From contig JAJQRF010000005.1 in assembly GCA_021228405.1 (NCBI GenBank), forward strand, positions 124,001 through 188,000: a stretch of 64,000 nucleotides of DNA, given 5' to 3'. Below, one piece after another: positions 5,306 to 14,825 of this stretch. The DNA comes from Pyrinomonadaceae bacterium (GTDB lineage Bacteria > Acidobacteriota > Blastocatellia > Pyrinomonadales > Pyrinomonadaceae). A program made the translations under genes and the position numbers. Numbering within the stretch: the stretch's first letter is position 1; every line of letters starts with the position of its first letter. The notes beneath the pieces are model-generated. The model saw only the letters and a list, made by a program, of their open reading frames with translations. It did not search any database and was not told where the DNA came from.

Positions 5306-8176
5306 ATGGCAAAACAACCTGCAACGATATATGTCTGCTCGAATTGCGGCGGACAGCAAAGAAAATGGCTCGGTCGCTGTCCTGACTGCGGCGAATTCAA
5401 CACGCTCACGGAAGAAAAATTTCGCCCGTCGCCGCAGACGACGGGAAAAGCCGTTTCCGCAAACGCCAGGCTCGGCGCGGACGCGTTTCGCGTCGTCAAA
5501 CCGATGGCTTATTCCGAGATCGAATCGCAGGATGATGCGCGGACATCGAGCGGCATCGACGAATTCGACCGCGTTCTCGGCGGCGGAATCGTGGCGGGTT
5601 CGCTCGTCTTGATCGGCGGCTCGCCCGGTATCGGGAAATGTCTGAGCGGCTCGACTCGTGTTTTCGATGCCAAAACCGGAGATTTTCTGCCGATTATCGA
5701 ATGGAAAAATGCCGGTAGAAATGTTCTTTCGCTCGATGAAAAAACGTATAAATTTTCGCTTGAGAAAGCAACTGCTTTTCACGATCAAGGAAGAAGGAAA
5801 GTTTTTGAAATAGAAACAAAACTGGGACGAAAAATCCGCTGCACGGCAAATCATCCTTTTTTGACCGTCGCAGGTTGGAAACCGCTTTCGGAATTAAAAT
5901 CGGGCGACTATCTCGCCGCACCGCGTGCTTTGCCTTTTTTCGGCGAAAGCGAAATGCCCGAAAGTGAAATCAAGTTGATTGCATATCTTTTGTCGGATGG
6001 TTCGCCTCAAAACAGCATTACGATTACGGCAACTCTTTCTGAAGTTGAAAAAGACATTTATGACATTGCCGACTATTTCGATTTGAAAGTTCGCGTCTAT
6101 CAAAAGGCAAACAGTTCGGCAAAAGATTTTCGACTTACTGTTCCCAAGTGCGAGAAAGTTGTTGCCCGCCGCGCTTTTGCCCGGAATTTTGTCAAAGTTC
6201 GTAATGAAAAAAATATTTCTTGGGCGCAAATCGCCCGTCAAATCGGCGAAAAATATGAAACCGTAGGGACTTGGCGAAACGGTAACGGAGTTCCATCAAA
6301 AAATCAGTTCGCGAAATTAACAAATGTTTTTGAAATTGACGGAAATGCACTGAATTTGCAGGACAGAGATCAAGCTGACACTTTGAATAGAGCATTGCAT
6401 TTTATCGAATCCGTTGGTTTGAGATTTAAAACTGCCGTTAATAAATCTGTGCCGGATTGTATTTTCCGATTACCGAAAGTTCAGCTATCGACTTTTCTTA
6501 AGATTCTTTTTTCCTGTGACGGTTCGGTTTACGTCAATGCACACGGACAAGCCGGAATTTCATATTCGACAATTAGTCGAAGATTAGCCGAAGATGTTCA
6601 GCATCTGCTTTTGCGTTTCGGATTTGTCGCAAAATTGAGAACGAAAAAAAGCCGAGTCAATGAAAATCCTTATACGGCATACGAAATTCAACTGTTGGGC
6701 GTTGAGAATATAAAAAGGTTTTTATCTGAAATCGGCATCTACGGACGTGAAAAAGCGAAAGAAAAAATCGCCCGATTGCCTTTACCCAATTTGTCTTCAA
6801 CGCACCGCGACACAATTCCGACAGGTGAATTGTTTTGGAAGAAATTAAAAGAATTATGCGGCAATGATTCATTCAAAACCGTTTCCGAAAAAGCAGGAAT
6901 TAGTTTGCAGAACAGAAGACACGAAAGACCGCTGTGCCGTTCAACGATTAAGTCGCTTGCCAATATTTATCCGAACTCTTTTTTGGAAAATTTAGCGTTT
7001 AGTGATGTTTATTGGGACGAAATTAAAAATATAAACTCTGTCGGCGAAGAGAATGTTTATGATATTTCAGTTTCGGCACACGAAAATTTTGTCGCCAATG
7101 ATTTGATTGTTCACAATTCAACCATTGTGATCCAGATGGCGGATAAATTGAGTAGTTCGGGCGGAAACGTGCTTTATGTTTCGGGTGAAGAAAGCGAACG
7201 GCAGATAAAAATGCGCGGCGAACGCTTGGGCATCAACGCCGAAAATCTTTTCCTGCTTCCCGAAACCAATCTCGAAAATATTCTGGCGGAAATCGACCGT
7301 TTGAAACCCGAATATGTGATCGTCGATTCGATTCAGACGGTTTTTTCGGAAAAGATCGAATCCGCACCGGGCAGTGTTTCGCAGGTGCGCGAAGTCGCGG
7401 GCGCATTGATGATCTTTGCAAAGCAAACCTCAACTCCCGTTTTTCTGATCGGTCACGTCACGAAGGAAGGTTCGATCGCGGGACCGAAAGCACTCGAACA
7501 TATCGTCGATACGGTTTTATATTTTGAAGGCGACCGTCATCACAATCACCGCATTATCCGCGCCACAAAAAACCGTTTCGGCGCGGCGAACGAGATCGGG
7601 ATTTTTGAAATGACGGGCGAAGGCTTGAAGGCGGTCGGAAATCCGTCGGAAGTCTTTTTGCAGGAACGACCCGAAGGCGCGAGCGGTTCGGTCGTCACGG
7701 TTTGTATGGAAGGCACGCGCCCGATGCTGGTCGAAGTTCAGGCACTCGTGACGGGCACGAAATTCGGAACGGGCAGACGAATGGCGCAGGGTTTCGATTA
7801 CAATCGCACGTCGCTTCTGATCGCCGTTCTGGAAAAAAGATTGGAATTTCAACTCGCCGGCGACGATGTTTTCATCAACGTCGCGGGCGGTCTGGAGATC
7901 GATGAACCTGCCGCCGATTTGGGCGTGATCGCGGCAATCGCTTCGAGCTTCAGAAACTTACAAATCCCGCCCGACACGGCAGTTTTCGGCGAAGTCGGCT
8001 TAACGGGCGAAGTGCGCGGCGTTCTCCAAGCCGAAACCAGAGCGCGCGAAGCGCAAACTTTAGGATTCAAAAAATTGATCTTGCCCGCCTCGAATAAAAA
8101 AGGATTGGAAAAATTACTGGGAATGCGCGTTGTCGGCGTGCGGACTCTGGAAGAAGCATTGGACGAATTGTTTTAG
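5306..8176 (+). CDS. radA: DNA repair protein RadA, interrupted by an intein
   Basis: RadA (Sms) is a RecA-like, Lon-related ATPase that drives branch migration in recombinational repair. The 956-residue ORF becomes a normal 463-aa RadA once an intein (112-604) is removed. Visible: N-terminal zinc finger CSNCGG...CPDC (Cys11, 14, 25, 28), Walker A GGSPGIGK ending at Lys111 and continuing with Ser605-Thr606 after the intein, the RadA-specific KNRFG motif after it, and the C-terminal Lon-protease-like domain with no need of peptidase activity. The ORF is continuous and has no internal stop, so splicing is required for function. The last ~25 codons have a decayed copy at 11787-11864. Confidence 0.96.
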   Translation: MAKQPATIYVCSNCGGQQRKWLGRCPDCGEFNTLTEEKFRPSPQTTGKAVSANARLGADAFRVVKPMAYSEIESQDDARTSSGIDEFDRVLGGGIVAGSLVLIGGSPGIGKCLSGSTRVFDAKTGDFLPIIEWKNAGRNVLSLDEKTYKFSLEKATAFHDQGRRKVFEIETKLGRKIRCTANHPFLTVAGWKPLSELKSGDYLAAPRALPFFGESEMPESEIKLIAYLLSDGSPQNSITITATLSEVEKDIYDIADYFDLKVRVYQKANSSAKDFRLTVPKCEKVVARRAFARNFVKVRNEKNISWAQIARQIGEKYETVGTWRNGNGVPSKNQFAKLTNVFEIDGNALNLQDRDQADTLNRALHFIESVGLRFKTAVNKSVPDCIFRLPKVQLSTFLKILFSCDGSVYVNAHGQAGISYSTISRRLAEDVQHLLLRFGFVAKLRTKKSRVNENPYTAYEIQLLGVENIKRFLSEIGIYGREKAKEKIARLPLPNLSSTHRDTIPTGELFWKKLKELCGNDSFKTVSEKAGISLQNRRHERPLCRSTIKSLANIYPNSFLENLAFSDVYWDEIKNINSVGEENVYDISVSAHENFVANDLIVHNSTIVIQMADKLSSSGGNVLYVSGEESERQIKMRGERLGINAENLFLLPETNLENILAEIDRLKPEYVIVDSIQTVFSEKIESAPGSVSQVREVAGALMIFAKQTSTPVFLIGHVTKEGSIAGPKALEHIVDTVLYFEGDRHHNHRIIRATKNRFGAANEIGIFEMTGEGLKAVGNPSEVFLQERPEGASGSVVTVCMEGTRPMLVEVQALVTGTKFGTGRRMAQGFDYNRTSLLIAVLEKRLEFQLAGDDVFINVAGGLEIDEPAADLGVIAAIASSFRNLQIPPDTAVFGEVGLTGEVRGVLQAETRAREAQTLGFKKLILPASNKKGLEKLLGMRVVGVRTLEEALDELF
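5639..7117 (+). other. RadA intein with LAGLIDADG homing endonuclease
   Basis: The intein covers RadA residues 112-604 (493 aa). It begins with Cys (CLSGSTRV, block A), has the block B signature TANHPF about 70 residues in, and ends with block F (ENVYDISV...NFVANDLIV) and terminal His-Asn; the +1 extein residue is Ser605. Two dodecapeptide-like motifs (LIAYLLSDGS and FLKILFSCDGS) mark a LAGLIDADG (DOD) endonuclease, and a helix-turn-helix-like insert (SWAQIARQIGEKY) lies between them. All splicing residues look intact. It sits between Lys and Ser of the P-loop, the most conserved spot of RadA, which is where inteins usually settle in ATPases. Confidence 0.95.
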
Positions 8177-9367: not shown

Positions 9368-11254
9368 ATGGAAAACGAATCAACAATCAATTTTGAAGAC
9401 TACAAAAACGAATGGCTCAAAGAAATAACTGAAGGGAATCCTTCAACAGTTGAACTTGGAAATAGATTTTCAAAAAAGTTAATTATTCAATGGCTTGATT
9501 TCAATGAAGACAGTGACGATATTATTTTATGTGATGGTGGCGGTGATGGAGGAATAGATATTGCCTATTTACATAGAGGAGATAATAAAGAGGAAAATTC
9601 CAATGACGGTGATACTTGGTATTTAGTACAAAGTAAATATGGCTCTGCTTTTTCAGGAACTGAAACTTTACTTAAAGAAGCGCAAAAAGTTATTGAAACA
9701 GTTGATGAAAAAAATAAATCCCTTTCTTCCTTAGCTGAAAATCTTATCGAAAGATTACAAAATTTCAGAAAAGCGGCTTCTTCAAAAGATAAGCTCGTGT
9801 TGGTTTTCGCTACGGTTAATAGTTTGGGTGAAAATGAAAAAAGAGTTCTTGAAGATGTTAAAGCTATGGGAAAAGCCAGACTAGGACCGCTTTTTGACGT
9901 TGATTCAGTTTCAATTGAAACGATATATCAAAGAATTGTAGAAAATCATCCGCAGTTAAAAAAATATGATATTGCTTTTACTGCCAACCTTAACCCTTCG
10001 GGAAATGATTTGTTAGTTGGCTCTGTAAAACTCAACAATCTTTATAAATTCTTAAAAGATTACAAAAAAGAAACGGGCGATCTCGATTTAATTTATGAGA
10101 AGAATGTTCGTAGATTTCTCGGCAGCAGAAAAAAAGTTAATGCCGGTATTGCTCAAACAATAAATGAGAATCCTGAAAGATTCGGTCTTTACAATAACGG
10201 AATCACTATTGTTGTTGAAGATTTCCAACTAATTGAAACCGATCAATATATCTTAAATGAGCCTTACATTGTCAACGGATGTCAGACTACAAAAACGATT
10301 TGGGAAACCCTTTACAAAAAACTTGAATCAGGAGGAACAGGCTCGAATCCAGAAATTGAAGAATGGAAAAAGCGGCTTGCTCGTGGAATTGTAGTTGTTA
10401 AAGTGGTTAAAGTCGGTGAAAATGGTGATGAACTATTAAAAGCAACTACAAGATACACAAATAGTCAAAATGCTGTCGGACAAAAGGATTTTATTGCTTT
10501 AGAAAGTAGTTTTAAAGATTGGGCAAAAGCAATGGCTCACGAATATGAAATTTTTCTGGAAATTCAGCGTGGCGGTTGGGAATCTCAAAAGGTATTACAA
10601 AGAATAAATCCAAGTGCCCAAACCTATCAAGATTGGGTGAATGCCTTCGATTTAATAAAAATTTATGGCGCAGGCTGGTTTAATGAACCCGGAATAGCCT
10701 TTGGGAAAAATGCCCCGTTCGCCCCAGATGGAAGTATCTTTAAACGAATAACAGAAGATGCTACATTTTCAATTATTGATTTGTATGCCGCTTATTTACT
10801 TCACAAGTTAACCCAAAAGATTGGATTTGGACGTATAACGGATAAACAATCAAGAAAGCAAACCAAGTTTTTATTCATAAATGTTTTAATTGAATTGCTT
10901 AAGGATTGTCTAACCTATTCTGAAATGGAAACAACAAATATAGAAGTTTCAAGAAGTGTAATTAAAATCTTTAACAATTTAGATTCTGAAGCCTCTACTA
11001 ATTTGGCGGATGCTACACTAAACGTAATTGATGATTATTTAACTCAAGGAAATGAGGATTCGATTTATACAGAACCTAAATTTTCACAGACGGGCGATTT
11101 GAACAGTTTTCTCAAGTGGGAAAGACTTGGAAAAGGCTCTGAACATACTCCTAAACTAAGCAATTTAATTGCTTTTACAAAGAGAGATATGAGAAGAAGC
11201 ATTGGTGGACAAACAGCGGCAAGAGCGGTGATTTCTCAAGCAATCAAAAATTAA
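9368..11254 (+). CDS. AIPR family protein, putative phage defence
   Basis: The central region carries the AIPR (abortive infection phage resistance, PF10592) signature: FLGSRKKVNAGI, then NPERFGLYNNGITI and YIVNGCQTTKTIW (about residues 250-320). The N-terminus looks like a restriction-endonuclease fold: DGGGDGGID (56-64) followed by WYLVQSKY (Gln88, Lys90), matching a PD-(D/E)xK-type D...QxK arrangement. Family members are found in defence islands and linked to abortive infection, and the nuclease is inferred, not shown. The 628-aa gene is clearly AT-richer than flanking genes, suggesting horizontal transfer. It has its own leader after an AT-rich 180-bp gap. No modification or toxin partner is adjacent. 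Confidence 0.88.
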   Translation: MENESTINFEDYKNEWLKEITEGNPSTVELGNRFSKKLIIQWLDFNEDSDDIILCDGGGDGGIDIAYLHRGDNKEENSNDGDTWYLVQSKYGSAFSGTETLLKEAQKVIETVDEKNKSLSSLAENLIERLQNFRKAASSKDKLVLVFATVNSLGENEKRVLEDVKAMGKARLGPLFDVDSVSIETIYQRIVENHPQLKKYDIAFTANLNPSGNDLLVGSVKLNNLYKFLKDYKKETGDLDLIYEKNVRRFLGSRKKVNAGIAQTINENPERFGLYNNGITIVVEDFQLIETDQYILNEPYIVNGCQTTKTIWETLYKKLESGGTGSNPEIEEWKKRLARGIVVVKVVKVGENGDELLKATTRYTNSQNAVGQKDFIALESSFKDWAKAMAHEYEIFLEIQRGGWESQKVLQRINPSAQTYQDWVNAFDLIKIYGAGWFNEPGIAFGKNAPFAPDGSIFKRITEDATFSIIDLYAAYLLHKLTQKIGFGRITDKQSRKQTKFLFINVLIELLKDCLTYSEMETTNIEVSRSVIKIFNNLDSEASTNLADATLNVIDDYLTQGNEDSIYTEPKFSQTGDLNSFLKWERLGKGSEHTPKLSNLIAFTKRDMRRSIGGQTAARAVISQAIKN

Positions 11255-13361: not shown

Positions 13362-14825
<1,464 letters not shown>

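Follow-up and report, generated by a model that had tools for sequence, protein, structure and literature searches.

A class 1 intein with a LAGLIDADG endonuclease and a predicted Cro/CI-like helix-turn-helix domain in the P-loop of bacterial RadA/Sms

Why is a bacterial repair gene interrupted within the codons of its ATP-binding loop, and is the interruption a mobile element, a relic or a switch? The gene is radA of a Pyrinomonadaceae bacterium (Acidobacteriota; GenBank assembly GCA_021228405.1), and it lies within positions 124,001 to 188,000 of contig JAJQRF010000005.1, a stretch of 64,000 nucleotides that we call the window. An earlier note on this DNA had reported a full-length intein inside the RadA P-loop at 5639-7117, and the reading frame, the borders and the Pfam and NCBIfam matches bear this out. 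Chance resemblance is ruled out for the intein call; the observation is confirmed and the coordinates are right to the base. Taken together, the sequence evidence makes it very likely that this is a class 1, endonuclease-bearing intein in the P-loop of a bacterial RadA/Sms protein, which splices, homes and carries a helix-turn-helix (HTH) domain that tunes target choice.

A single frame of 956 codons spans positions 5306-8176 (+) of the window, with no stop inside. Its parts are given below; the borders of the parts of the intein are approximate and were drawn from an AlphaFold model and an alignment of 11 RadA inteins.

5306..5638, + strand: radA N-extein, with the zinc ribbon and then the ATPase as far as the Walker A Lys (GGSPGIGK); from TIGR00416 and Pfam
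5639..7117, + strand: RadA intein of 493 residues, class 1 (Cys1 ... His-Asn, Ser+1); from motifs, profiles and alignment
5639..5950, + strand: N-terminal splicing (HINT) half, residues 1-104, with C1, block B T69-x-x-H72, and C68
5951..6142, + strand: first LAGLIDADG half, residues 105-168, with block C (IAYLLSDGS) and D120
6146..6412, + strand: predicted Cro/CI (XRE)-like HTH domain in the stretch that links the two LAGLIDADG repeats, residues ~170-258; Pfam core at 6194-6340
6413..6766, + strand: second LAGLIDADG half, residues 259-376, with block E (ILFSCDGSVY) and D294; Pfam LAGLIDADG_3
6767..7003, + strand: helical segment before the C-terminal splicing half, residues 377-455; helices at 397-407, 412-419, 434-443 and 447-454 in the model
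7004..7117, + strand: C-terminal splicing half, residues 456-493, with block F D475 and block G H492-N493
7118..8176, + strand: radA C-extein, beginning with Ser+1 (the Walker A Ser, codon TCA), then the remaining ATPase, the Lon-like domain and the stop

The exteins match the RadA/Sms model TIGR00416 in two stretches, with 587 bits (cut-off 403). Pfam finds a zinc ribbon, a KaiC/ATPase domain with Walker A and a Lon-like C-terminal domain, while Pfam Rad51 reaches 12.2 bits against a cut-off of 22, so the host is RadA/Sms and not an archaeal Rad51-type protein. Bacterial RadA is a DnaB-type helicase that works with RecA (PMC5512693; this and every paper below is cited from excerpts). GGSPGIGK ends at 5638, Cys1 is encoded from 5639, His-Asn ends at 7117 and STIVIQ begins at 7118. 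The insert of 1479 bases (493 codons) thus splits Lys from Ser of Walker A. A second intact radA was one of the observations that the earlier note had set against its own claim; a sequence search found none in the window's genome (5.7 Mb, 20 contigs, 96.5% complete), where the only other hits were one dnaB intein and a short stretch resembling the Lon-like C-terminal region.

Splicing residues are intact. The window copy has C1, T69-H72, D475, H492-N493 and S+1, the residues of a class 1 intein, and C1, T69, H72, D120, D294, D475, H492 and N493 are identical in all 11 aligned RadA inteins. The earlier note's description of an intact Cys1, TxxH block B, HN terminus and Ser+1 is therefore correct. 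Pfam matches in the window protein include Intein_splicing (E 4e-29), LAGLIDADG_3 (E 3e-20) and HTH_3 (E 1e-4, residues 186-234). Both splicing-end profiles score above their cut-offs (TIGR01445 intein_Nterm, 39.7 against 24.5 bits; TIGR01443 intein_Cterm, 20.9 against 15.6 bits). Among NCBIfam models the intein scores highest with PRK07773, a DnaB model, at 251 bits, far under its whole-protein cut-off of 780, and the nearest solved structure by sequence to the splicing domain is the DnaB intein 6frg (E 1.6e-23).

The AlphaFold model of the intein has a mean predicted local distance difference test score (pLDDT) of 89.7. Its splicing part is predicted to adopt the HINT fold of the Ssp DnaB intein 1mi8 (Z 25.4, root-mean-square deviation (rmsd) 0.9, 136 residues aligned). 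The best solved match of the whole model is the TliVMA intein 7qss (Z 33.1, rmsd 3.6, 375 residues), and further matches to endonuclease-bearing inteins include 2cw7 (Z 31.9, 345 residues) and 1dq3 (Z 25.5, 383 residues). TliVMA and PI-PkoII/PI-TkoII (2cw7), both archaeal and both among the top structural matches, combine HINT, a two-repeat LAGLIDADG endonuclease and an accessory domain, as does the window intein. In the proposed mechanism, the HINT domain would act after translation through an N-S shift at Cys1, transesterification to Ser+1 and then cyclisation of Asn493. Splicing would restore GGSPGIGKST and hence ATP binding.

Two LAGLIDADG motifs with catalytic Asp, as in DOD-type homing endonucleases, are present (D120 and D294) and are kept in all 11 RadA inteins, in agreement with the earlier note. 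Pfam LAGLIDADG_3 scores 72.6 bits (cut-off 22.5) on the second half only, and Hom_end matches over the first half under its cut-off. Mean pairwise identity among the 11 inteins is 54% in the N-terminal and 65% in the C-terminal splicing half, 50% in the first and 62% in the second LAGLIDADG half, 44% in the helical segment and 37% in the HTH (4 of 82 positions invariant). None of the full-length copies has a frameshift or a lost catalytic Asp. Constraint on the endonuclease is similar to that on the splicing domain, as would be expected of a maintained enzyme and of active homing. The LAGLIDADG domain would cut intein-free radA at the conserved P-loop codons, and repair would copy the intein in. 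All 11 carriers encode Ser+1 by TCN, compared with 31 of the 46 empty sites that could be read (one-sided Fisher test, p 0.023; p 0.22 within the family alone). Because the empty sites all come from the window's own class and 8 of the 11 carriers belong to other phyla, the excess is only a hint that the nuclease may need TC at +1/+2.

We identified the RadA intein in 3 of 119 genomes of the family, with part of the intein matches opened individually: the window's, G035 (52% identity to the window intein) and G007 (48%). Among 396 genomes spread evenly over the phylum, the window's genome alone gave a match better than E 1e-60; G035 and G007 lay outside this draw, as either would have matched. 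A scan of GTDB returned 14 loci, ten of them bacterial radA carriers and four archaeal ATPases that we read as HerA-like. By the titles of their records, the carriers belong to Pyrinomonadaceae (2), Thermomicrobiales, Ktedonobacteria/Ktedonobacterales (2), Chloroflexi, Patescibacteria, Uhrbacteria, Rokuibacteriota and Armatimonadetes. The two Pyrinomonadaceae loci (L034 and L039) recur among the family carriers given above. RadA inteins thus occur in at least five phyla (Acidobacteriota, Chloroflexota/Thermomicrobia, Patescibacteria, Rokubacteria and Armatimonadota). Four of 400 genomes of the phylum of a Ktedonobacteria carrier (G493) passed. Two of these had been found before; the others added a partial RadA intein (L101) and a DnaB P-loop intein (L102). 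The RadA set therefore comprises 11 full-length inteins and the partial L101, which has about 220 residues at a contig end and is in no alignment. The insertion point GK-S is common to all carriers, and nine of the 11 inteins are 493 residues long, the other two 491 and 495.

The sites without inteins include those of close relatives. We inspected 47 loci that lack the intein, and in 46 of them the GK-S P-loop is uninterrupted by motif; the remaining one (L088) does not fit the motif, and its two radA parts adjoin nonetheless. The C-exteins most like the window's come from empty alleles (G023, 93%; G005, 91%). G035 carries the intein and G011, of the same genus, does not, and their exteins are sisters in the tree (support 100/100). 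This sporadic pattern of presence, together with the empty sites in relatives, turns what the earlier note had offered as possible mobility into a probable one. In two further genomes, of genus code g13 (G012 and G036; completeness 89% and 82%), no radA match was obtained (best E 6e-8 and 2e-8), and radA may be absent from them or may have been missed. Two candidates with about 40% partial identity (L062, G001:C151; L060, G135:C48) were rejected as RadA inteins; their host reads by eye as dCTP-deaminase-like, and in L060 its two halves lie in different frames.

The RadA inteins form one clade (100/100), to which none of the DnaB and HerA inteins in the comparison belongs. Several loci were left out of the trees: L071 (SMC-like, long branch) after the first tree and L061 (411-residue DnaB P-loop intein, long branch) later, L068 (a 144-residue mini-intein) as too short, and L057 (DnaB P-loop, with N bases), L060, L062 and L064 throughout; L047 is cut off and L048 (terminase-like) was unused. 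Identity to the window intein is 43-52% regardless of how related the hosts are. The same-family carriers have inteins 52% and 48% identical and exteins 74% and 72% identical to the window's, and in the Thermomicrobiales carrier the intein is 51% and the exteins are 49% identical; extein identity to carriers in other phyla is 46-51%. Across the 11 carriers, a Mantel test gave no significant correlation of intein with extein identity (r 0.20, p 0.16).

Composition sets the window copy apart from its host gene. The intein has a GC content of 40.5% and a third-position GC content (GC3) of 36.7%, against a GC3 of 60.3% in the exteins, and its GC3 is under that of 24 of 25 window open reading frames compared (31 less radA and less five that overlap longer ones). 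In G035 and G007, intein and exteins are much closer in composition. The AT-rich window intein suggests a recent arrival. It is most simply read as having entered the window's lineage recently, from a donor that was AT-richer or unrelated; a donor was not found. A recent transfer among family members was also considered and is unsupported, as an approximately unbiased (AU) test did not reject a single clade of the three Pyrinomonadaceae inteins. Identity in 60-base bins beside the site gave no clear co-conversion step, whether the comparison was with four empty relatives or of G035 with G011. The first downstream bin has only somewhat lower identity, and at such divergence the profile is not interpretable. 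On these sequence comparisons, the intein is probably still a mobile element.

The segment between the LAGLIDADG repeats is what marks the RadA inteins. All 11 have an aligned segment of 85-87 residues at this position. Within the window intein HTH_3 scores 22.7 bits, and 23.2 bits as an isolated segment, on either side of the curated cut-off of 23; the HTH that the earlier note had described thus stands as a fold by model, with a borderline profile match. Scans of whole inteins found HTH_3 in seven of the 11 and HTH_31 in six. As isolated segments, nine have HTH_3 and/or HTH_31 at E≤0.1, and three pass a curated cut-off (the window's; L037, 31.5 against 23 bits; L042, HTH_31 at 30.1 against 27 bits). 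Folded alone, the window segment has a pLDDT of 79.9, and the predicted model superimposes on C.AhdI (Z 11.4, rmsd 1.3, 69 residues), a Cro/CI fold; numerous further Cro/CI-type chains also match, among them C.BclI and the P22 c2 repressor. Repressors and C-proteins of the Cro/CI (XRE) type (C.AhdI, C.BclI, lambda, P22) share the fold and profile of residues ~170-258; the window HTH is embedded in a homing endonuclease.

We consider the Cro/CI-like HTH probably a captured DNA-recognition module, which most likely contacts DNA and adjusts target choice. It and the helical segment that precedes the C-terminal splicing half would add DNA contacts to those of the nuclease. The helical segment would itself be an accessory domain by position, and its role is taken by analogy from PMC8966425. 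In the excerpt of that paper, the accessory domains of endonuclease-bearing inteins are diverse and two of them are HTH-like, and for TliVMA and PI-PkoII/PI-TkoII a resemblance to HTH is described; an origin from genes such as those of transcription factors is proposed, and a 434-repressor domain was grafted. Accessory domains of VMA inteins lie between the endonuclease and the C-terminal splicing half, whereas the HTH of RadA inteins sits between the LAGLIDADG repeats. By this comparison, the RadA clade looks like a natural instance of accessory-domain acquisition, at another position.

DnaB P-loop inteins, known at Mycobacterium site b and found here in Pyrinomonadaceae and in the Chloroflexota-centred genomes, occupy the same GK-S/T point in a DnaB-type RecA-fold ATPase. 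They share with RadA inteins the Cys1/HN ends, two LAGLIDADG motifs and a similar stretch before the C-terminal splicing half, and differ in forming a separate group, in Thr at +1, in the rarity of C68 (see below) and in the HTH. The HTH segment is lacking in 12 of 13 DnaB P-loop inteins (409-431 residues; nine judged from the alignment and three by length). The thirteenth, L102, from the Chloroflexota-centred draw, has 495 residues and an HTH_31 match of 31.8 bits against a cut-off of 27. In a tree built without the HTH columns, L102 falls inside the DnaB group with seven HTH-less inteins (100/99; whole DnaB group, 88/90). This placement suggests that the HTH was gained more than once, swapped or lost repeatedly. 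A bolder reading, which we hold to be rather doubtful as a whole, is that a P-loop intein lineage became a radA specialist by capturing a Cro/CI domain: the HTH would read a second DNA stretch beside the P-loop codons and let the nuclease distinguish radA from other P-loop genes, dnaB among them, L102 would be a second capture or a swap, and Cys68 could make splicing oxidation-sensitive. If true, nature would have provided an example of the accessory-domain acquisition proposed, and imitated by grafting, in PMC8966425.

Several results weigh against a homing intein with a target-tuning HTH. The HTH is the least conserved part of the RadA inteins, the segments of L034 and L043 match no HTH profile at E≤0.1, and Foldseek of the HTH domain alone is weak (best E 0.0055). 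The AU test leaves room for a single clade of the three family inteins (p 0.27), and the inner tree is poorly resolved, so vertical descent with repeated loss within the family is compatible with the data. No relative more than 52% identical to the window copy was found, which puts dN/dS selection on the endonuclease out of reach. No RadA-type intein, and hence no vehicle, was found in the phage, plasmid and viral-contig collections scanned: the phage collection gave 10 records and the plasmids five, all under 60% identity and none in a gene named radA, and in IMG/VR a single-protein query gave nothing and an alignment query one 24%-identical intein in a terminase-like frame. The GTDB loci were sought by one endonuclease motif plus one splicing motif, which under-counts RadA mini-inteins, and all ten other aligned carriers are metagenome assemblies.

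Some of these points would fit an HTH that is merely a structural spacer, making no DNA contact or carrying little weight in target choice. Low conservation and the two segments missed by profiles are what a spacer would predict, and removal of the accessory domain left TliVMA able to cut the same substrate (PMC8966425). Loss of that domain nevertheless lowered DNA binding and altered the cleavage profile in the same work, and the Cro/CI-like fold, the profile matches and the retention of a same-length segment in every full-length RadA intein argue for a working module; we regard the spacer as a serious alternative, though the less probable one. The low HTH conservation, the lack of a close relative and the unrejected family clade could also be read as signs of a degenerate passenger, in which splicing works, the endonuclease is dead and the pattern reflects old transfers and ongoing loss. 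This is unlikely given 11 full-length copies free of frameshifts and with both catalytic Asp, and given the AT-rich window copy, which points to recent entry.

Does the intein also control its host? With Lys and Ser of Walker A interrupted, ATP use should be abolished until splicing, and the precursor should not be an active ATPase. The earlier note's statement that the host is inactive until spliced is kept here as this expectation, drawn from established knowledge of Walker A and from precedent. The Pyrococcus horikoshii RadA intein disrupts ATPase function (PMC6195587) and splices in a manner dependent on single-stranded DNA and on heat or temperature (PMC5790916), and splicing of the Mycobacterium smegmatis DnaB P-loop intein is conditional on oxidation (PMC6195587). 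The earlier note's suggestion that DNA repair could come to depend on splicing conditions is thus a possibility with precedents in other hosts, archaeal RadA and mycobacterial DnaB, and its interpretation as a whole is supported in part. Both precedents differ from the window intein. The P. horikoshii intein resembles it in its P-loop site, in a host named RadA and in recombination function, whereas that host is an archaeal RecA/Rad51-family recombinase, the intein is described as a mini-intein without endonuclease (PMC5790916) and its sequence match to the window intein is weak (E 0.054). The M. smegmatis site-b DnaB intein is a class 3 mini-intein, unlike the RadA/Sms intein (PMC6195587).

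A candidate for conditional control is C68, a second Cys just before block-B T69. It is present in 11 of 11 RadA inteins, and elsewhere in 1 of 10 DnaB P-loop inteins, 0 of 5 inteins at the dnaB H4 site (DnaB-H4) and 0 of 3 HerA inteins. A C1-C68 disulfide could act as an oxidation switch. This clade-specific Cys and, by analogy, the two conditional precedents would support a domesticated switch, in which slow or conditional splicing (redox, single-stranded DNA, temperature) gates RadA and the endonuclease is a remnant. Such a remnant would hardly keep both catalytic Asp in every copy or have its second LAGLIDADG half among the best conserved parts, and the sporadic distribution argues against a needed switch; we hold full domestication to be highly improbable. 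A fast-splicing parasitic intein would impose no condition on the host.

Other P-loop inteins were found beside those of RadA and DnaB; their host names were assigned by eye from sequence. Archaeal HerA-like inteins (L044-L046) share the GK-S site and class 1 ends and form their own clade; they have 32-33 residues between the repeats against 85 in RadA inteins, and so lack an HTH-length segment. With L047, they come from HerA-like ATPases of Diapherotrites, Woesearchaeota and Pacearchaeota whose P-loop intein is related to those of RadA and DnaB, and in the three aligned ones the first LAGLIDADG Asp is replaced by Glu. The SMC-like intein L071 (G075:C190; P-loop VGPNGCGK-S) has the same site and class 1 ends, a very long branch in the tree and, ahead of its first LAGLIDADG motif, a stretch that looks HTH-like; G026, G074 and G076 have frames of about this length that also match inteins.

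The window's genome also has an intein in dnaB (G000:C12:20823-22118, -; L002/L003), of 429 residues and with both endonuclease Asp. It lies in an 891-residue frame after SDLRESG, the H4-motif site, leaves the dnaB P-loop uninterrupted and groups with those of G026, G101, G014 and G030. The mini-intein L068 (G016:C177; 144 residues) occupies the dnaB H4 site and is of the same family as the full-length ones, with which it forms a possible endonuclease-loss pair.

Downstream of radA in the window, 1.2 kb away, lies an AIPR-family gene (9368-11254, +; Pfam AIPR E 9e-45, PADLOC AbiU E 3e-37). Its GC3 of 24% is the lowest of the 25 frames compared, and it is likely an acquired phage-defence gene. 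A DUF6986-family gene follows at 13362-14825 (+; E 2e-146).

P-loop inteins in replication and repair ATPases are well known, and the element itself is unsurprising. An intein in bacterial RadA/Sms was not found among titles and abstracts in a literature search that had InBase outside its scope, and prior cataloguing is quite possible; a table row in the excerpt of a review reads 'RecA/RadA ... Eubacteria/Archaea' (PMC5874633). As far as that search showed, two things are new: a clade of RadA/Sms inteins that extends over several phyla, and the place where its Cro/CI-like HTH sits. The 11 full-length inteins, all with both endonuclease motifs and an HTH-length segment, and the partial one, from at least five phyla, make a useful set. 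Beside DnaB P-loop inteins with and without the HTH, they make the gain of a new homing target specificity directly testable. Since radA is reported to be dispensable in bacteria (PMC9129000), conditional splicing of a full-length P-loop intein could be measured here without killing the cell.

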